A stretch of DNA of 64,000 nucleotides from Ardenticatenaceae bacterium. Lineage in GTDB: Bacteria > Chloroflexota > Anaerolineae > Promineifilales > Promineifilaceae. The first letter of the stretch is position 1. Each line of letters opens with the position of its first letter. Of this stretch, positions 54,512-63,302 are shown piece by piece. The translations under genes and the position numbers were made by a program. The stretch covers positions 62,001 to 126,000 of the forward strand of contig WYBM01000026.1 in assembly GCA_011525915.1 (NCBI GenBank). The letters run 5' to 3'. The notes beneath the pieces are model-generated. The model was not told the origin of the DNA and did not search any database. It worked only from the letters and a program-made list of their open reading frames with translations.

Positions 54512-54536
54512 ATTCTAAAACGCCAAAAGCTTAACG

Positions 54537-54570
54537 AACAGGCCGGTCTTGTACCGGCCTGTTTTTTATT
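54537..54570 (+). terminator. Rho-independent terminator
   Basis: 11-bp stem AACAGGCCGGT (54537-54547) and ACCGGCCTGTT (54553-54563), 5-nt loop, then TTTTATTT. Separates the PPC lipoprotein from the acylation cassette. Confidence 0.92.
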
Positions 54571-54597
54571 TAAGTGAGTGACGATACAATAAATTCC

Positions 54598-55626
54598 ATG
54601 CAGCGGCTTCTGGTCATTGGTGTGATGGTTATGTTTTGGGGGCTCATTATCGTGGGCATTGTGCGGCAGATGCCCGCCAGTCCCTTTGCCAACACGGCCG
54701 TGCCTACCCTGGTCACCACCTCAGAATCGGCCCTGCTGCGGCGGCCCAACCTAACCATGACACCGGCGATCCCCCCTACCTTTACGCCGCCATCTGCAGC
54801 GGCACCTGAGCCCCAAAACGGCATGGCACAGACCGTACCCTTACCTACCACCACCGCGCTGGCCAGCCTCAACGGCATTCCCCTGGCCAGCATCATTGTC
54901 ATGTCGCCGGCCGTGGTGGCCAACGCACAGGCCATTTTTGTGCAGGGGCAGACCTACGGCCGTAACTCGCACGCCTATGCCAAAGTGGGCGACAGTACCA
55001 TCCAAAACCCCCACTTCATGACCCGCTTTGATGAACCAGGTGGTTACAACCTGGGGCCTTATGCCTATTTGCAGCCTACCATCGATTATTTTGCCGGGTC
55101 ACACAGCCGCGAAGGCACGGCCGTGCGTCGGGGCCTTCACGCCTGGACAGTGCTGGACCCACTGTGGGCAGACAAAACAGTGTGCCAACCCCATGAAACG
55201 CCCATTGCCTGCGAAATCCGCCTGCATAACCCGGCCATTCTACTCATCCGGCTTGGCTCCAACGACGCCGGCGTGCCTGATAGCTTTGACCAGAATGTGC
55301 GGCAGGTAGTAACCCTGGCCGTCGCCAACGGCGTTATCCCCGTCATTGGTACCAAGGCAGACCGCTTCGAAGGTAGTAATATCAACAACGACATCTTGCG
55401 GCAGATTGCCGCCGACTACCAGGTCCCTCTATGGGATTTTGATGTAGCCGCCCAAATGATTCCAGGACGTGGTCTGGATGTGGACAACATCCACTTGAGC
55501 GCCTTTTTTGCCCACGATTACAGCTTACCAGTGGCTCTTGAGCGTGGGCATGGGGTGCACAACCTGACGGCACTGATGATGCTGCACGCCTTGTTGACCA
55601 TGGTCATGGCGCCGCAGGGTGAGTAA
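54598..55626 (+). CDS. Exported SGNH-family protein 1 of acylation cassette
   Basis: 342 aa. N-terminal TM (2-23), a Pro/Thr-rich linker to about residue 85, then an SGNH core: GDST (131-134, Ser133), LGSNDAG (block III Asn222) and DNIH (Asp296, His299). A full catalytic set is present. The C-Q-P-H-E...C pair and ADRFEGSNINND are shared with the two paralogues downstream. No SD is seen before ATG 54598; a TACAAT at 54585-54590 would start the transcript right at the ATG (leaderless). GTG 54574 is an alternative. SGNH proteins of MBOAT systems (DltD, AlgX/J, PatB) pass acyl groups to surface polymers. Confidence 0.82.
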   Translation: MQRLLVIGVMVMFWGLIIVGIVRQMPASPFANTAVPTLVTTSESALLRRPNLTMTPAIPPTFTPPSAAAPEPQNGMAQTVPLPTTTALASLNGIPLASIIVMSPAVVANAQAIFVQGQTYGRNSHAYAKVGDSTIQNPHFMTRFDEPGGYNLGPYAYLQPTIDYFAGSHSREGTAVRRGLHAWTVLDPLWADKTVCQPHETPIACEIRLHNPAILLIRLGSNDAGVPDSFDQNVRQVVTLAVANGVIPVIGTKADRFEGSNINNDILRQIAADYQVPLWDFDVAAQMIPGRGLDVDNIHLSAFFAHDYSLPVALERGHGVHNLTALMMLHALLTMVMAPQGE

Positions 55627-55652
55627 ATTTGCCACGGAGACACCAGGGTTTT

Positions 55653-56714
55653 ATGATGAAGACACATTGTTTTTGCCTGAGGCTTCAACCGCTGCCTTTA
55701 TGCCTGGCGGCAGCCATGGTGATGGGGGTTATGGTGGCAGCCTGTGGTCCCAACACGGCCGTAAGGCCAGCCACACCAACTAGCTTAAATGCAGCTACGC
55801 CTGACCTGCATAGAAAGGACACGGCCGTGCCATCATACACACCCACCACACCCACGCCGCCCCCATCGGCCACCGCGGCACCGCCCACAGCGCCGCCCAC
55901 AGCCACCACCACACCATCCCCCACCCACACACCTGCACCATCCCCCACACCATTGCCGTCTTTGAACGGCCTATTGCCTGGTGACATCTTGCTCATGGAC
56001 GAGGCCACACAAGCCAATGTGCGCCAGATTTACGCTAATGGCCAGGAATGGGGGCGTGACCCTCATCGTTTTTCTGTACTGGGTGACAGTACCGTGATGA
56101 CCCCTCATCTGATGGCCCGCTTTGAGCGCGAGGATTTAAATCTGGGTCCCTATGACTATCTACAACCCATTGTAGGCCGGTTCGCCGGCACCTGGCGCCG
56201 TTTCGGCGTGGCCACCAACTATGGCCTGCATTCCTGGTCTGTTTTTGACCCGCTGTGGGCAAACAAAAAGTGGTGTGAACCTAACGAGGATATGCTCACC
56301 TGCGAATTCCGGCTGCAAAACCCCGCTTTTTTGTTGATACGGTTGGGGTCTAATGATGCCGGCTCACCTGATGGCTTTGCCTACAACGTGCGGCAAGTAA
56401 TTGAACACGCCAGCGCCCACGGGGTTGTCCCTATCATCATCACCAAGCCAGACCGTTTTGAAGGGGACAATACCAACAACGAGATTTTGCGCCAATTGGC
56501 GGTAGACCATCATGTCCCTATTTGGGATTTGGACCGGGTGGCGGAAACGCTGCCGGGCAAAGGGCTGGACGAGGATCAGGTGCACATGCTGGAGTATACG
56601 GCTAACGATTTTACAGACCCGGCTGTTTTTACCAGCGGCCATGCCATGCAAGATTTATCAGGGCTCATGGCTCTGTATGCCGTTCTGCAAACGGTGCAAA
56701 CCCCGGCGGAATAG
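55653..56714 (+). CDS. SGNH-family lipoprotein 2 of acylation cassette
   Basis: 353 aa from ATG 55653 (a second ATG follows at once). Lipoprotein signal with lipobox VAAC (Cys31), a long Thr/Pro/Ala linker (about 40-105), then the same SGNH core as its neighbour: LGDST, LGSNDAG, and EDQVH for the Asp/His dyad. The paired Cys (KKWCEP ... LTCEFRL) is also kept. Clearly a duplicate of SGNH 1 with a lipid anchor in place of a TM. Confidence 0.85.
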   Translation: MMKTHCFCLRLQPLPLCLAAAMVMGVMVAACGPNTAVRPATPTSLNAATPDLHRKDTAVPSYTPTTPTPPPSATAAPPTAPPTATTTPSPTHTPAPSPTPLPSLNGLLPGDILLMDEATQANVRQIYANGQEWGRDPHRFSVLGDSTVMTPHLMARFEREDLNLGPYDYLQPIVGRFAGTWRRFGVATNYGLHSWSVFDPLWANKKWCEPNEDMLTCEFRLQNPAFLLIRLGSNDAGSPDGFAYNVRQVIEHASAHGVVPIIITKPDRFEGDNTNNEILRQLAVDHHVPIWDLDRVAETLPGKGLDEDQVHMLEYTANDFTDPAVFTSGHAMQDLSGLMALYAVLQTVQTPAE

Positions 56715-56740
56715 CTTATAATTCCCGGCCTGTTGGCATG

Positions 56741-56812
56741 GTAGGCAAACCGCACAAAGTTTTCGCAAATCCGGCATATTGGTTTTGTGCGGTTTCTCGA
56801 GGAATCGGCAAC
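56741..56812 (-). repeat. Dispersed hairpin element, copy 2
   Basis: Reverse-orientation copy of 8692-8763: 12-bp stem AAACCGCACAAA (56747-56758) and TTTGTGCGGTTT (56784-56795), 25-nt loop, flanked by CTCGAGGAATCGGCAA. Sits between the second SGNH gene and the small lipoprotein gene. Confidence 0.7.
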
Positions 56813-56847
56813 GCTTAAATTGATCTTAAATTTTCAGGAGAGGCTGC

Positions 56848-57222
56848 ATGAAGAAGCTACTGGTTTTGATGGCTCTGCTTACGGCCGTCATCACAGCGTG
56901 TGACAGCACTATAGGAGGGGGTGATCCTGCGGCCAGCGTGGAAACGTACCTCCAGGCCAAGGTAACTGGGGATGAAACCACCATCCGCCGCCTGCTTTGT
57001 TCTGAGATGGAACAGATAGCAGACCGCGAGATTCATACGTTTGACAGTGTGCAAGAGGTGACCATTGCCGATATGGCCTGTACCGATGGCGGCGACGGCC
57101 GTGTCACCTGTACCGGTGTCATCAAAGCCCTGTATGGCACAGAAGAGACAGAATTCCAACTCACCAACTATCGTGTCGTCCAGGAAGATGGCGAATGGAA
57201 ATGGTGCGGCGAGACTGAATGA
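56848..57222 (+). CDS. Small NTF2-like lipoprotein
   Basis: 124 aa; RBS CAGGAGAGG before ATG 56848. Signal peptide with lipobox AVITAC (Cys18). The mature part looks like an NTF2/Cdc-type cone fold (VETYLQAKVTGDETTIRRLLC ... EFQLTNYRVVQEDGEWKWC) as in DUF4878-like lipoproteins. It lies inside the acylation cassette; role unknown. Confidence 0.75.
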   Translation: MKKLLVLMALLTAVITACDSTIGGGDPAASVETYLQAKVTGDETTIRRLLCSEMEQIADREIHTFDSVQEVTIADMACTDGGDGRVTCTGVIKALYGTEETEFQLTNYRVVQEDGEWKWCGETE

Positions 57223-57269
57223 TCGGCAATCGGCTGCCGTCGACCGATGACCAATAACCGATGACCTAC

Positions 57270-57386
57270 ATGCAAAAACTATTCTCTCGTGAAAACCTGA
57301 TAGCCCTGGCCCTGTGCTTCCTGATCATCTTGTTGGTGATTGTGACCACAGACAGTGCGCCGCAGTGGATCTACCAGGGGTTTTGA
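57270..57386 (+). CDS. DltX-like 38-aa single-span protein of MBOAT cassette
   Basis: Short ORF ATG 57270 to TGA 57386. N terminus MQKLFSREN (basic), one TM (LIALALCFLIILLVIVTT, about 10-27), then an exposed tail ending DSAPQWIYQGF. By the positive-inside rule the tail is outside. The build and the C-terminal aromatic-Tyr-x-x-Phe end match DltX, the small peptide of Dlt operons. As I recall, the DltX C-terminal Tyr is the proposed intermediate acyl acceptor between DltB and DltD. It sits 11 bp before the third SGNH gene, which overlaps the MBOAT gene. No strong SD. Too short for default gene callers. Confidence 0.7.
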   Translation: MQKLFSRENLIALALCFLIILLVIVTTDSAPQWIYQGF

Positions 57387-57397
57387 GACAGGGCCGC

Positions 57398-58510
57398 GTG
57401 TTGAGGCAAACCCACGACGCTTTTTGCTTGCTGTTATGCCTGACGGCCATAATCCAGACCGCTTGTGGCCCGGCACTGCCCAACCCAACGCCCACAAGGA
57501 ACACGGCCGTATGGCTGTCACCCACGGCCGTGCCGCCATCTTTCACGCCATCACCACGGCCCGCTATCACGACCGTGCCCATCATCGTCCTGTCTCCAAC
57601 CCATCGACAGGCTGCCCACCCCATGACCCCCTCACAGCCCCCCCTCCTCCCTTCACCTTCACCTTCGCTCACCCCCTTGCCACCCTCTCGCCGCCCTTCC
57701 CCGCCACCACCCCTCCTGGTTAATGGCCTGACATTAGACGACTTCCTGATAATGGACGGCGTTACGCGCCAGAATGTACGCACCATTTACCGTCGAGGGC
57801 AGGCGCTGGGGCGTAATGCGCATGCCTTCTCAAAATTGGGCGACAGTGGGGCGTTCACCGGCCATTACCTGACACGTTTTGACTACCCACCCCATTACAC
57901 CCTGGGCGACTACGCTTATTTGCAACCAGTCATTGACCATTACAAAGATTCGTTTGAACGCTATGGGGTGGCTGTGGTCGTTGGTATCAGCTCCTGGCAC
58001 GTGCTAGACCCGGCGCGTACCAACCTGACCTGGTGCGCCCCAGAGGAGCACATGCTGGCGTGTGAAATACGGCTGCACAACCCCAGCATTCTGTTTATTC
58101 GCCTGGGTACCAATGACGCTTCCTCAGCGGAAGTGCTAGCGCGCAACCTGCAGCGCATTATCGCGTTTACGGTTGAGCAGGGCGTAATCCCCATCCTGGC
58201 TACCAAGGCCGATCGTTTTGAAGAGGCCTACAACCAGAACAACGAAGCGATCCGCCATGTGGCCGCCGATTTCCACATTCCGTTGTGGGATTTTGACCGG
58301 GTGGCCAGCACACTGCCTAATCACGGGCTGATGGCCGATCAGGTGCATCTGACCCATGCCGACCGCAACGATTACACTGACCCGGACACCTTTAGCAAAG
58401 GCTACCCGATGAACGACCTGACGGCGCTCTTTGTGCTGAAAACTATGCTGGAAACAGTCAGAGAACCAACGTATGTGGCCCCCTCTTTTCAGGAGGCTGT
58501 ACAGCCGTGA
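57398..58510 (+). CDS. SGNH-family lipoprotein 3 of acylation cassette
   Basis: 370 aa from GTG 57398; the frame is open to 57314, but this start gives a clean lipoprotein signal (lipobox IQTAC, Cys23). A Pro/Ser-rich linker follows (about 30-110). SGNH core: LGDSG, LGTNDAS (block III, Asn), and ADQVH near the C terminus. Keeps the Cys pair (LTWCAPEE ... LACEIRL). Stop overlaps the MBOAT start (GTGA), so the two are translationally coupled; this is probably the direct DltD-like partner. Confidence 0.82.
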   Translation: MLRQTHDAFCLLLCLTAIIQTACGPALPNPTPTRNTAVWLSPTAVPPSFTPSPRPAITTVPIIVLSPTHRQAAHPMTPSQPPLLPSPSPSLTPLPPSRRPSPPPPLLVNGLTLDDFLIMDGVTRQNVRTIYRRGQALGRNAHAFSKLGDSGAFTGHYLTRFDYPPHYTLGDYAYLQPVIDHYKDSFERYGVAVVVGISSWHVLDPARTNLTWCAPEEHMLACEIRLHNPSILFIRLGTNDASSAEVLARNLQRIIAFTVEQGVIPILATKADRFEEAYNQNNEAIRHVAADFHIPLWDFDRVASTLPNHGLMADQVHLTHADRNDYTDPDTFSKGYPMNDLTALFVLKTMLETVREPTYVAPSFQEAVQP

Positions 58511-60063
58511 ATGTTGATCTGGTGGTCATTGGCCTGTTTGTGGGGACGTCCCTGTTATATACTCTGCTCATTCCCGGCCGATGGCGCGGCTGGTTCCTCT
58601 TTATCGTCAGTGTACTGGCCATTTACTGGCGGCAAAGCTTTACCCCGCTTCGCTTTGCCGACTACCTCTTACAGACGATCACCATCCTGCTCACCGTGTT
58701 GACGTGGTGGGTAACAAGACCTGAACCCAACGGGGCAGCAGCAAAAGGCTGGCTAAAGCCTGACAGATCTGATGTTGTCACACTGTTGGTCTTGTTTGGG
58801 CTGGTGCTGCTGGTGGCAGGCAACCGTTATCTGGCAGTGGAATGGCGCCTGACGGCGTCACGCCCCCCGTCGCCATGGTGGGTGGCTGTTGGGCTGCTGG
58901 CAAGCGGCGGGCTGTTTGCCCTGGCCTGGCACTGGCTGCGCCGGGCAGCACGACGGCCGTTACTAACGGCCGTCATCCTGTTCATTGCCCTGCTCTTTGC
59001 CCTGCTCAAAGCGCCAGCGCTGACCACGGCCGTGGCTGCCGGCTGGCGCACCCTCACCGGCCAGCAAGCAGCCCTGGCCGCCCCCTCTGACCTGACCTGG
59101 TTGGGCTTTTCCTATGTGGCCTTTCGCCTCATTCACACCCTGCGTGATCGGCAAACAGGGCCGTTGGCGGTCACGCCGCCGCTCACACTGCGCGAATTTG
59201 TAACCTACGTCCTCTTCTTCCCCAGCTATGTCGCCGGGCCCATAGACCGGGTAGAGCGGTTTGTGGGGGATGTGCGGGAAGAGGGGAAAAGGTATTCAGT
59301 ATTCGGTATTCAGCATTCAGTGATCAGGCAAAAAGGCGATGTGCCGAACCCATCACCGCTACCGGGGACGGATTACGGATCGCGCTATTGGCAGGGCGGC
59401 GGGCGCATTCTCATCGGCCTGTTTAAGAAGTTTGTCATTGCGGACACACTGGCGTTGGGGATGTCACTGACGGCCGTCAATGCCGCCCAGGCCACCTCTA
59501 CCCTTTGGCTGTGGGTGCTGTTGTATGGGTATGCCCTGCGATTGTTTTTTGATTTTAGCGGCTATACCGATATGGCCATTGGTCTGGGCATGCTGTTTGG
59601 GGTGACCTTGCCGGAGAATTTTAAACGGCCGTACCACACCACCAACATCACCGCCTTTTGGCAAAGCTGGCACATCACCCTCAGTGCCTGGGCCCGTTTT
59701 TACGTCTTCAGCCCGCTCTCCCGCTCATGGCTGCGGCGCCGACGACGGCCGTCTAACACCATCATCCTGTTCACCGCCCACCTGGCCACCATGATCATCA
59801 TCGGTCTGTGGCATGGCCTTACAGTAAATTACTTGATCTGGGGACTGTGGCATGGGCTGGCGCTGTTTGCCCACAAACAGTGGAGCGACCGCACCCGGCA
59901 ATGGTATCAAGGTCTACAGGAAAAACCGTGGCCAAAGCGGGGCTGGACGGCCGTGACCTGGTTCCTGACCTTCCACTATGTGACCCTGGGCTGGGTGTGG
60001 TTTACCCTACCCACACCTCAACTGGCGCTGGAGACGTTTGGCAAGTTGTTGGGAATTAAGTAG
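58507..60063 (+). CDS. MBOAT-family O-acyltransferase (DltB/AlgI-like)
   Basis: 518 aa starting with GTG 58507 inside the stop of the previous gene. About ten to twelve helices. MBOAT signatures: FPSYVAGPIDRVERF, NFKRPYHTTNITAFWQSWHITLS, and the catalytic His in IIGLWHGLTVNYLIWGLWHG (about residue 436). MBOATs take an acyl group from an acyl carrier or CoA on the inside and move it through the membrane. Unusual: a 40-bp piece of the CAGT-type dispersed repeat (59290-59329) is read in frame as RYSVFGIQHSV in a cytoplasmic loop before RILIGLFKKFVIAD. The neighbouring genes supply carrier, ligase, small peptide and SGNH partners. Confidence 0.9.
   Translation: MNVDLVVIGLFVGTSLLYTLLIPGRWRGWFLFIVSVLAIYWRQSFTPLRFADYLLQTITILLTVLTWWVTRPEPNGAAAKGWLKPDRSDVVTLLVLFGLVLLVAGNRYLAVEWRLTASRPPSPWWVAVGLLASGGLFALAWHWLRRAARRPLLTAVILFIALLFALLKAPALTTAVAAGWRTLTGQQAALAAPSDLTWLGFSYVAFRLIHTLRDRQTGPLAVTPPLTLREFVTYVLFFPSYVAGPIDRVERFVGDVREEGKRYSVFGIQHSVIRQKGDVPNPSPLPGTDYGSRYWQGGGRILIGLFKKFVIADTLALGMSLTAVNAAQATSTLWLWVLLYGYALRLFFDFSGYTDMAIGLGMLFGVTLPENFKRPYHTTNITAFWQSWHITLSAWARFYVFSPLSRSWLRRRRRPSNTIILFTAHLATMIIIGLWHGLTVNYLIWGLWHGLALFAHKQWSDRTRQWYQGLQEKPWPKRGWTAVTWFLTFHYVTLGWVWFTLPTPQLALETFGKLLGIK
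59290..59329. repeat. Dispersed CAGT-type repeat fragment inside MBOAT gene
   Basis: GGTATTCAGTATTCGG and CATTCAGTGATCAG units read in frame; same sequence style as 26465-26594 and 37770-37859. Confidence 0.6.
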
Positions 60064-60076
60064 ACTCAGCTCTACC

Positions 60077-61240
60077 ATGCAAAACTGGCAAGCCATCGGC
60101 CGCATTCTGTTAAAAGCGGCCATTTTATTTGTGATAGTGAACGTAGTCATTGCGGCGCTGCGGCCATACCCTACCCTTGCGGCCGTCTCCCTCTACAATA
60201 CCGTGTATCCTGGTCGGCCGCGCCTGCCCTACGGCGAAAACCCGGCAGAAAGCTATAACCTGAGCCTGAACAGCCTGCCAGCCATGTTCGCCAGTCACAC
60301 CCTTAGCCGACCAAAAGCAGCCGATGAGTTCCGTGTCATTTTGCTAGGTGATTCAGGGGTCTGGGGTTGGTTTTTAGCGAATGAAGACACGTTGGCCGGG
60401 CAGTTAAACACGATGGGGCCCGTTATGGGTGACGGCCGTACCGTGATCGTTTATAACCTGGGCTACCCCCTCATGTCTGTGGGCAAAGATTTGCTGCTGC
60501 TGGACGAGGCGATGCAGTACAGTCCTGACCTCATCCTTTGGCCGGTGACACTGGAATCTTTGGTTCCGGCCCGGCAGCTGGACCACCCCATTTTACAGCA
60601 TAACCCGGCCCGGCTGCGCCGCCTCATAGAAGCGTATGACCTAACCCTGGACCCCTACGATCACCGTTTTGTGACGCCAGGTTTTCTGGGCCACACCCTC
60701 GTCGGCCAGCGACGTGCCCTGGCCGATTGGCTGCGTTTGCAGCAGGTAGGTGTGGCCTGGGCGGCCACCGGCATTGACCAGGTCATCCCCACAGACATCC
60801 CCCTGCGCCAATCTGACTTTGACGCCGACGTAAGCTGGCAAACGTTTGCAGCTGAAAGCAAGCTAACCACCCATGACCTGGCCTTTGACCTGCTGGCTGC
60901 CGGGGCAGCCCGCGCCGGTGATGTGCCTGTGCTGATCATCAATGAGCCTATATTTGTGAGCAATGGCCAAAACAGCCATAAGCGCTATAACCTATGGTAC
61001 CCTCGTTGGGCCTATGACCAGTACCGTGAATTGTTGGCGGCTACGGCCGTGGCTCACCAATGGCCATATCTGGACTTGTGGGATGTTATACCACCCCATG
61101 AGTTTACTGATAGCCCCGTTCACCTGACGCCCGCCGGGGTAACCCTGTTAGCAGAGAGCGTGTGGGCGGGGGTCACAGCCGGGTCTAGCCCTGGCCTTTC
61201 TATGATCTGGCCGACCACCAAGGAGCATGAAGGGCAGTAA
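60077..61240 (+). CDS. Membrane-anchored SGNH protein (DltD/AlgJ-like)
   Basis: 387 aa from ATG 60077. One N-terminal TM (about 10-27), then an outside domain with LLGDSGVWGWFL (GDS at 91-93) and a C-terminal DSPVHLTPAG (Asp/His dyad). Unlike the three other SGNH proteins it has no Pro-rich linker and no Cys pair; its central part (YSPDLILWPVTLESL) is more like the AlgJ/DltD-type families that sit next to MBOATs. Starts 14 bp after the MBOAT stop. Confidence 0.8.
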   Translation: MQNWQAIGRILLKAAILFVIVNVVIAALRPYPTLAAVSLYNTVYPGRPRLPYGENPAESYNLSLNSLPAMFASHTLSRPKAADEFRVILLGDSGVWGWFLANEDTLAGQLNTMGPVMGDGRTVIVYNLGYPLMSVGKDLLLLDEAMQYSPDLILWPVTLESLVPARQLDHPILQHNPARLRRLIEAYDLTLDPYDHRFVTPGFLGHTLVGQRRALADWLRLQQVGVAWAATGIDQVIPTDIPLRQSDFDADVSWQTFAAESKLTTHDLAFDLLAAGAARAGDVPVLIINEPIFVSNGQNSHKRYNLWYPRWAYDQYRELLAATAVAHQWPYLDLWDVIPPHEFTDSPVHLTPAGVTLLAESVWAGVTAGSSPGLSMIWPTTKEHEGQ

Positions 61241-61329: not shown

Positions 61330-61596
61330 ATGGACGAACAAACTATCCGCGCCAAACTACGCGCCTTTATTACCCGTGAACTTATCCGCGATGCGGGTTA
61401 CAACTTGCAAGACGATGAGGGTATCATCAGCAATGGTCTGATGGATAGTTTTGCGCTGGCAGAATTTGGCGTCTACGTAGAGCAAGAATTTAACGTCTAT
61501 ATTCCGGACGCAGACCTGACTGTAGCCAAACTGGACACGCTCAACCAGATGGTAGCCCGGATTATGCGAGATCTCGCCGTATCTGGCCAGCCCTAG
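61330..61596 (+). CDS. Acyl carrier protein (DltC-like role)
   Basis: 88 aa, acidic, four-helix ACP. The phosphopantetheine Ser is Ser40 in GLMDSFALAEF; the local motif is like DltC (GLLDSF). GGAGTGGAGA serves ATG 61330. A TATAAT at 61288-61293 could be an internal -10. Five bp before the ligase gene, so it is almost certainly the carrier for that ligase. Not a type-II FAS ACP (lacks the DSLD motif). Confidence 0.92.
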   Translation: MDEQTIRAKLRAFITRELIRDAGYNLQDDEGIISNGLMDSFALAEFGVYVEQEFNVYIPDADLTVAKLDTLNQMVARIMRDLAVSGQP

Positions 61597-61601
61597 AGAC
61601 A

Positions 61602-63302
61602 ATGCTCACCCGGCATACACGGCCGTCTTTCCACACCCTGGATGATGCTATCACACTTGCGGTCGACGATGACACACCAGACGCCATCATCTATCGGGAA
61701 ACGGGCCAGGAACCGGTATACGTTTCCCGGCGGCAGTTCCGGGCACATGTTGCTGGCTATGCGAGTGCCCTGTACGGGTTAGGTATTCAGTCAGGTGACC
61801 TGGTTATCATCGCCCATACCCAAAATCTGGAGAGCATTTACGCTTTTTGGGGGGCGATGCGGCTGGGGGCTATCCCCGCCATGTTTCCCACCCTCACCGA
61901 AAAGATGGATCCCACTATCTACCAGCGGCATATGGCTGAACTGGTGCGGCTGTCTGGCGTCAAAGCGGTGTTGACCACGGCTGAGTTTGCGCCGCATTTA
62001 CGGGCAGCGCTGCCCTGCCCGGTGTATGGCTCAACAGAGATACAAGCGAGGCCAATGGCCCCTGAAGAGCACCTTTACCCGTCAATCCCTCATGGCTATT
62101 CTCCCCATGCAAACAACATCGCTTTCTTGCAGCACTCTTCCGGCACCACAGGCCTACAAAAAGGGGTGGCGCTGTCACACACGGCCGTGCTGAACCAGAT
62201 TGCCAGCATGAGCGACGCCATTCACCTCCATAAGCAAGATGTGATCGTCAGCTGGCTGCCTCTGTACCATGACATGGGCCTCATTGCCGGCTTTTTATTG
62301 CCATTGATACAGGGCATCCCCCTGGTGCTTATGTCTCCGTTTGACTGGGTCAGCCACCCGGCGCTGCTGCTGCAGGCCATCCATGATCACCAGGGCACAC
62401 TTTGCTGGCTGCCTAACTTTGCCTACAATCACTGCGCCCGCCGCATTCGGGCGCGAGACCAGGCAGGATTATCGCTGGCCTCCATGCGCTTGTTTATCAA
62501 CTGCTCAGAGCCGGTACGGCATGACAGTCACCAGCTGTTTCTGGAGAAATTTACCTCAAATGGCGTACGACCGGAGATGTTGGGCGTGAGTTATGCCATG
62601 GCCGAAAACACCTTTGCCGTGACCCAAACGGTACCAGGACAGCCGGCCAGGTGTGACATTGTTAATGAACAGGAACTCACCACTGATGGAGTGGCCACCC
62701 CGGTAGAAAAGGAGCATCCCCAGGCCGGGGTGAAGGTTTCTTGTGGTGCGGCCATTGCCGGTACGGCCGTGTGCGTGTTGGCACCTGACGGCCGTGTCTT
62801 GCCAGACCGGCACGTGGGCGAACTGGCCATCCGCAGCAACTGTATGCTCACTGAATATTACAAACGACCTGATCTACAACCCTGCCAAAACGGTTGGTAC
62901 CACACCGGCGACCAGGGTTATATGGTAGACGGCAACGTCTTTGTCATTGGCCGGACCAGCGACCTGATCATCAACGCCGGCAAAAACATCTACCCGCAAG
63001 ACATCGAGGCCATTGTCAATACCGTGCCCGGCGTTCACGCTGGCCGTGCCGTCTGTTTTGGTGTGCCTGACGAAAAAGAAGGCACTGAACTGCTTGCCGT
63101 GGTGGCAGAAGTAAACACAGAAGACCCGGAAGTTCGCCAGGAAATCAATAAAACAATCCGGCAAGAAGTAACCCGGCATGGTGCCGTAGCTGTCAGTTAC
63201 GTTTATCTGGTTGGCCCCCGTTGGCTGCTTAAGACTTCCAGCGGCAAAATCGCCCGCGCCGCTAACCGGGACAAGTGGCTGATGGAAACAGGTAAACGGT
63301 GA
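61602..63302 (+). CDS. Acyl-AMP ligase (FAAL-like), DltA-like role
   Basis: 566 aa adenylate-forming enzyme. Seen: A3 P-loop LQHSSGTTGLQKGVALSH, A5 segment SYAMAEN, INCSEPVR (like the NGAEPVR of fatty-acyl-AMP ligases), A7-A8 YHTGDQGY and GRTSDLIINAGKNIYPQDIE, and A10 catalytic Lys in SSGKIARA. It should activate a carboxylic acid as acyl-AMP and load the adjacent carrier. The FAAL-like features favour a fatty or other non-amino acid over D-alanine, but the specificity is inferred. ATG 61602 is coupled to the ACP gene. Confidence 0.88.
   Translation: MLTRHTRPSFHTLDDAITLAVDDDTPDAIIYRETGQEPVYVSRRQFRAHVAGYASALYGLGIQSGDLVIIAHTQNLESIYAFWGAMRLGAIPAMFPTLTEKMDPTIYQRHMAELVRLSGVKAVLTTAEFAPHLRAALPCPVYGSTEIQARPMAPEEHLYPSIPHGYSPHANNIAFLQHSSGTTGLQKGVALSHTAVLNQIASMSDAIHLHKQDVIVSWLPLYHDMGLIAGFLLPLIQGIPLVLMSPFDWVSHPALLLQAIHDHQGTLCWLPNFAYNHCARRIRARDQAGLSLASMRLFINCSEPVRHDSHQLFLEKFTSNGVRPEMLGVSYAMAENTFAVTQTVPGQPARCDIVNEQELTTDGVATPVEKEHPQAGVKVSCGAAIAGTAVCVLAPDGRVLPDRHVGELAIRSNCMLTEYYKRPDLQPCQNGWYHTGDQGYMVDGNVFVIGRTSDLIINAGKNIYPQDIEAIVNTVPGVHAGRAVCFGVPDEKEGTELLAVVAEVNTEDPEVRQEINKTIRQEVTRHGAVAVSYVYLVGPRWLLKTSSGKIARAANRDKWLMETGKR

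Follow-up and report, generated by a model that had tools for sequence, protein, structure and literature searches.

This analysis concerns a very short gene in a 64,000-nucleotide stretch of DNA from Ardenticatenaceae bacterium (Chloroflexota; Anaerolineae; contig WYBM01000026.1, positions 62,001 to 126,000), hereafter the window. The gene encodes a 38-amino-acid peptide and is located between the genes of a 124-amino-acid lipoprotein (56848-57222) and of an SGNH lipoprotein (57398-58510), the latter being followed by the gene of a DltB-like MBOAT protein. A preliminary description of this DNA had proposed a DltX-like peptide with a basic start, one transmembrane segment and a WIYQGF end, placed between lipoproteins and an SGNH/MBOAT pair; the frame and its neighbors are present as described. 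In our interpretation, the product of 57270-57386 is probably a stand-alone membrane acyl shuttle, whose C-terminal tyrosine would work between the DltB-like MBOAT and an SGNH transferase on the outside. The peptide gene has the following features:

57270..57386, + strand: candidate DltX-like acyl-shuttle peptide of 38 amino acids (sequence, conservation, selection, C-terminal motif)
57366..57383, + strand: codons for the WIYQGF hexapeptide at the C-terminus (read from the sequence; FXYXXF motif as in PMC12148441)
57372-57374, + strand: codon of Tyr35, the proposed acyl acceptor (sequence and motif)

The frame starts with the ATG at 57270, stops with the TGA at 57386 and encodes MQKLFSRENLIALALCFLIILLVIVTTDSAPQWIYQGF. 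An alternative in-frame ATG at 57261 would give a 41-amino-acid product; in two relatives, L032 and L035, the sole methionine ahead of the SREN sequence is the equivalent of 57270. After the basic start comes a single hydrophobic stretch (mean Kyte-Doolittle value of 2.8 in the two best 19-residue windows, 9-27 and 10-28), and the one membrane helix is thus predicted from hydropathy. The C-terminus is predicted to be outside, for which the basic N-terminus is only suggestive. The gene had been called unannotated, which needs qualification. On a plasmid of Leptolinea sp. HRD-7, together with at least the MBOAT and the small lipoprotein, there is a relative of the peptide that does have an annotation, as hypothetical protein BCY19582.1. 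JGI likewise gives the name “hypothetical protein” to many of the 120 database matches listed.

The reading frame is a real conserved gene. Peptides of relatives are 58-84% identical to it, the lowest identity in a larger set being 45%, and the transmembrane part is conserved as well. Purifying selection is observed over 13 sequences (pN 0.142, pS 0.677), with no frame disruption that would speak against the gene. A database search with the peptide returned 3,625 protein clusters at E <=0.001 among 7,994 candidates scored. No Pfam family matched it, and its sole match in the PDB (13 bits, E 0.59) does not identify a sequence relative. The aromatic-Tyr-x-x-Phe end, which had only looked conserved, is indeed fixed: a profile search of the fetched loci gave 131 copies, 116 of them distinct, and all 116 end in [W/F]-[I/M]-Y-Q-[G/A/N]-F. 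Counted from the C-terminus, proline at -8, tyrosine at -4, glutamine at -3, and phenylalanine at -1 are invariant. Position -6 is a tryptophan in 114/116 and a phenylalanine in 2/116, so that the first residue of FXYXXF is mostly not phenylalanine here. Because the profile was itself made from such tails, the 116/116 count is partly circular, and a count of frame ends made without a profile is the freer test. The 80 related loci fetched via the MBOAT have 23,221 open frames with 25 codons or more; [FWY]xYxxF is the end of 64 of them, and in 64/64 it takes the form [WF][IM]YQ[GAN]F. For a gene so short and so near other genes, a chance frame or a stray upstream frame could be suspected; its probability is vanishingly small, and it is refuted by the conservation across genomes, the fixed tail with its motif counts, and the pN/pS values.

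The peptide and the DltB-like MBOAT occur together. Among 400 genomes of the phylum, in each of which at most three candidates were scored, the peptide is found in 34 and a DltB-like MBOAT (>=420 bits) in the same 34, all belonging to the class of the window (Anaerolineae). A further 38 genomes have MBOATs of <=202 bits only and no peptide (p = 4e-50 for the co-occurrence, kinship ignored). In a set of 59 relatives, the MBOAT is matched in 27 and the peptide in 26; the same 25 hold both, once G007 and G040, which have fused-tail MBOATs (L027, L028; L057, L058), and G049 are set aside. The G049 peptide match, a marginal one of 25 bits inside a 316-codon frame, was rejected because the tail is absent. 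The genome of the window itself (G000, 7.46 Mb) has one MBOAT match.

The preliminary description had suggested looking for similar peptides near homologous MBOATs across Chloroflexota. In the named-genome loci, which are the best 80 of 377 confirmed loci, a peptide with the same C-terminal end accompanies the MBOAT in 64/80. Six of the 16 remaining loci start <850 bases from a contig end, and for 15 of the 16 the peptide is found elsewhere in the genome (11 of 12 genomes searched were positive, to which L177, L178, L179, and L211 are added); the search of the L218 genome was negative. In five genomes, the peptide adjoins the fatty-acyl-AMP ligase and not the MBOAT. These best 80 loci all carry labels of Chloroflexota groups, save one labeled Bacteroidetes (L199). 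The contig of the latter, on which peptide, MBOAT, SGNHd (the SGNH protein encoded downstream of the MBOAT), and carrier are present, is perhaps a mis-binned Chloroflexota contig.

Around the peptide gene, the cluster is made up as follows:

54536..54564, + strand: terminator-like hairpin of 12 pairs ahead of the gene cluster (consensus scan, which is not evidence of function)
54574..55626, + strand: SGNH1, SGNH/GDSL protein with an N-terminal hydrophobic stretch (PF13472, 5.9e-5, under the curated cut-off)
55629..56714, + strand: SGNH2, lipoprotein of the SGNH/GDSL kind and paralogue of SGNH1 (PF13472, 2.1e-4, again below the curated cut-off)
56848..57222, + strand: LP124, 124-amino-acid lipoprotein adjoining the peptide in many loci (NCBIfam Rv0361_Cterm, 3.5e-5, under the cut-off)
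57398..58510, + strand: SGNH3, SGNH/GDSL lipoprotein (PF13472, 1.3e-7, 32.7 bits, narrowly missing the cut-off of 32.9; GTG start picked by eye from the lipobox)
58507..60063, + strand: DltB-like MBOAT lacking a shuttle tail at its C-terminus
60077..61240, + strand: SGNHd, SGNH protein predicted to be anchored in the membrane by an N-terminal helix; transferase proposed to stand in for DltD
61330..61596, + strand: acyl carrier protein, standing in for DltC (PF00550, 3e-4, 21.4 bits, cut-off 20.8)
61602..63302, + strand: fatty-acyl-AMP ligase, standing in for DltA (PF00501, 5.2e-53; NCBIfam fatty acyl-AMP ligase; PDB 3kxw, 3pbk)

The MBOAT resembles DltB in sequence, in its predicted fold, and in two conserved histidines. 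At E 0.001, its only sequence relatives in the PDB are DltB structures (6bug, 8jem; best E 2e-34), and DltB is the best fold match of the predicted model. H389 and H436 are invariant in 20/20 aligned sequences, one row with a stop having been dropped beforehand. However, the best NCBIfam model, the DltB equivalog TIGR04091, gives 212 bits and thus falls below its cut-off of 375. The MBOATs associated with the peptide have no C-terminal tyrosine tail; the tyrosine hexapeptide is on the partner peptide, whereas a separate MBOAT clade bears the tail fused. As a side observation, the repeat ATTCAGTATTCGGTATTCAG... at 59294-59320 in the MBOAT gene lies in an extra stretch (residues 269-287) absent from the 19 other aligned rows and modeled with low confidence.

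In SGNHd, for which an SGNH fold is predicted by modeling, the serine of the GDS motif (Ser93) and His349 are invariant in 45/45 aligned sequences (again with one row with a stop dropped beforehand); a profile search of the PDB gave one match, at E 4.7, which is not meaningful. The carrier is matched weakly, under the cut-off, by DltC models. The ligase resembles known fatty-acyl-AMP ligases over residues 40-558 of 566 (3kxw, E 1.1e-56; 3pbk, E 1.4e-55), and its best NCBIfam model is that of a fatty acyl-AMP ligase, with 340.8 bits for a cut-off of 600 (below). Known fatty-acyl-AMP ligases feed lipid and polyketide pathways. In the open-licence literature searched, no paper was found in which such a ligase and an MBOAT occur together. 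Since a carrier, a fatty-acyl-AMP ligase, and an SGNH protein stand beside the peptide and the MBOAT, the system is likely a Dlt-type split relay moving fatty or other carboxylic acyl groups, and not D-alanine.

Two parts of the cluster have variable occurrence. LP124-type lipoproteins are found in 43/80 named-genome loci, mostly directly upstream of the peptide, and also where the peptide stands apart from the MBOAT (L142, L143); they may be an additional part of the system. Three related SGNH/GDSL proteins are encoded upstream of the MBOAT (54574-58510), in a copy number that differs among relatives, and possibly represent added transferases or de-acylating esterases. Across the window, 115 copies of the palindrome ACGGCCGT were counted for 1.2 expected; we take it to be comparable to the HIP1 repeats of cyanobacteria.

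The mechanism that we envisage relies on published chemistry. In PatA, the MBOAT acylates the tyrosine of a C-terminal FXYXXF tail, acyl-Tyr having been demonstrated, and the tail passes the acyl group to the serine of an SGNH protein; this chemistry is also cited for Dlt (PMC12148441). The tail of DltX is FLYFGF and is predicted to bind the active site of DltB (PMC11035591). We infer a similar course here, and with it the topology of the peptide, the acylation of Tyr35, the sequence of transfers, the nature of the cargo, and the acceptor. The fatty-acyl-AMP ligase (61602) would activate a carboxylic or fatty acid and load it onto the carrier protein (61330). The MBOAT (58507) would then transfer the acyl group from the carrier across the membrane to Tyr35 on the outside tail of the peptide. 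The acyl-bearing tail would swing to the catalytic serine of the SGNH protein (60077) anchored in the membrane, and this protein would finally esterify a surface glycopolymer.

Two other explanations depart from this course at different steps. The peptide could be a mere structural or assembly subunit joining the MBOAT and the SGNH protein, with Tyr35 unacylated. Indeed, DltX also forms a single complex with DltB and DltD (PMC12148441), and conservation extends to the transmembrane part. However, the tyrosine is invariant, at a fixed distance from the C-terminus, in a sequence like the tail fused on other MBOATs, and we regard a purely structural role as very unlikely. Alternatively, the relay could operate as proposed up to its last step, with a lipoprotein or a small molecule in place of the surface polymer as final acceptor. 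The cluster does encode SGNH lipoproteins and a small lipoprotein, but polymers are the targets of known MBOAT/SGNH pairs (PMC12148441), and we regard such an acceptor as quite unlikely.

As far as relationships with Dlt systems are concerned, the peptide is, like DltX, a short protein of its own, is predicted to cross the membrane with one helix, and has an aromatic-x-Tyr-x-x-Phe tail at the C-terminus. Its partners also correspond, namely an MBOAT of the DltB type, a carrier, a ligase, and an SGNH protein that has an N-terminal helix. The DltX likeness initially proposed is thus borne out in size, predicted topology, tail, and company. In contrast, the curated model gives no support to DltX identity. 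Pfam DltX (PF12459) was over its cut-off in 0/8 genomes, with no weak match at the peptide, and passed in 2/14 controls; moreover, the motif mostly opens with tryptophan here and with phenylalanine in the published form. The system also differs from Dlt in having a fatty-acyl-AMP ligase for DltA, an SGNH protein outside Pfam DltD, and a Chloroflexota host. DltD (PF04914) matches in 0/10 peptide-bearing genomes, while the controls Bacillus subtilis and Lactococcus lactis match. DltA (TIGR01734) is over its cut-off in 0/10 and under it in 10/10, and 2/14 controls pass. In the genome of the window, the DltA model gives 70 matches under the cut-off, many in frames of 1,000-4,000 codons, which look like non-ribosomal peptide synthetases. 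Because the DltX model does not match and DltD, as well as DltA over its cut-off, is absent from all ten genomes, the peptide and the system were not filed as DltX and Dlt; for the system, TIGR04091, PF04914, and TIGR01734 all lack a match over cut-off. The peptide is DltX-like, working like DltX in the proposed relay, yet it is no filed DltX.

A divergent true Dlt system, in which the ligase would load D-alanine or another amino acid for a teichoic-like polymer, has to be weighed against these results. DltB is the nearest relative of the MBOAT by sequence and fold, and the weak DltC matches of the carrier go in the same direction. Teichoic and lipoteichoic acid genes are also reported in a genome paper on Litorilinea, a member of the Chloroflexota (PMC8793728), and the teichoic polymerase family PF04464 is just over its cut-off in 3/10 genomes. 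However, PF04464 has no match in 7/10, the genome of the window included, the ligase is nearest to fatty-acyl-AMP ligases in both NCBIfam and the PDB, and what the DltA model finds in the ten genomes are adenylation-domain matches under the cut-off. A true Dlt system is therefore unlikely in our view. In view of the mixed PF04464 result and the Litorilinea genes, the wording “outside teichoic-acid bacteria” used in the preliminary description may go too far for these bacteria.

The idea of a C-terminal hexapeptide is shared with the MBOAT-SGNH pairs of the PatA/PatB type, involved in the O-acetylation of peptidoglycan, alginate, and cellulose. In those pairs, MBOAT and tail form one fused protein and the donor is acyl-CoA, with neither carrier nor microprotein in the published account (PMC12148441), whereas here the tail is split off and comes with a carrier. 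Fused-tail MBOATs are also found in two genomes of the genus of the window (L059 7262-10775; L060 3271-6634), where two of them lie a few kilobases apart with tails ending in PFVYQGF. Hence, the split and fused arrangements both exist within one genus. A plasmid record of Priestia megaterium (Bacillota) also has a fused-tail MBOAT. Comparison of the peptide with the C-terminal helix of fused-tail MBOATs by tblastn gave a best E of 0.025, which is not significant.

According to a 2025 paper in the Journal of Biological Chemistry, non-Dlt MBOAT/SGNH pathways have no carrier and no DltX-like microprotein (PMC12148441); the present system appears to be an exception to this rule. The earlier suggestion of a relay at work outside teichoic-acid bacteria is not new where fused tails are concerned, these being already published there; what is new is the split tail peptide together with a carrier protein outside Dlt. 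No paper on DltX in Chloroflexi, or on an MBOAT with Chloroflexota, was found in the open-licence literature searched. There is about an even chance that Anaerolineae possess a second Dlt-type pathway, a carrier-fed microprotein relay exporting fatty acyl groups to a surface polymer, in which split and fused tails are one module. The published division is between Dlt, with carrier and microprotein, and the other pathways, with acyl-CoA and a tail fused to the MBOAT (PMC12148441). The system crosses this line, combining a microprotein and a carrier with a fatty-acyl-AMP ligase, and having no recognizable DltA or DltD. It thereby offers a natural test of whether the microprotein is tied to carrier-bound donors in general, and of whether acyl groups beyond acetyl and D-alanyl can be exported in this way. 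Finally, it points to a so far undescribed modification of the cell surface in a large group of bacteria that has been little studied and in which the chemistry of the envelope is under debate.
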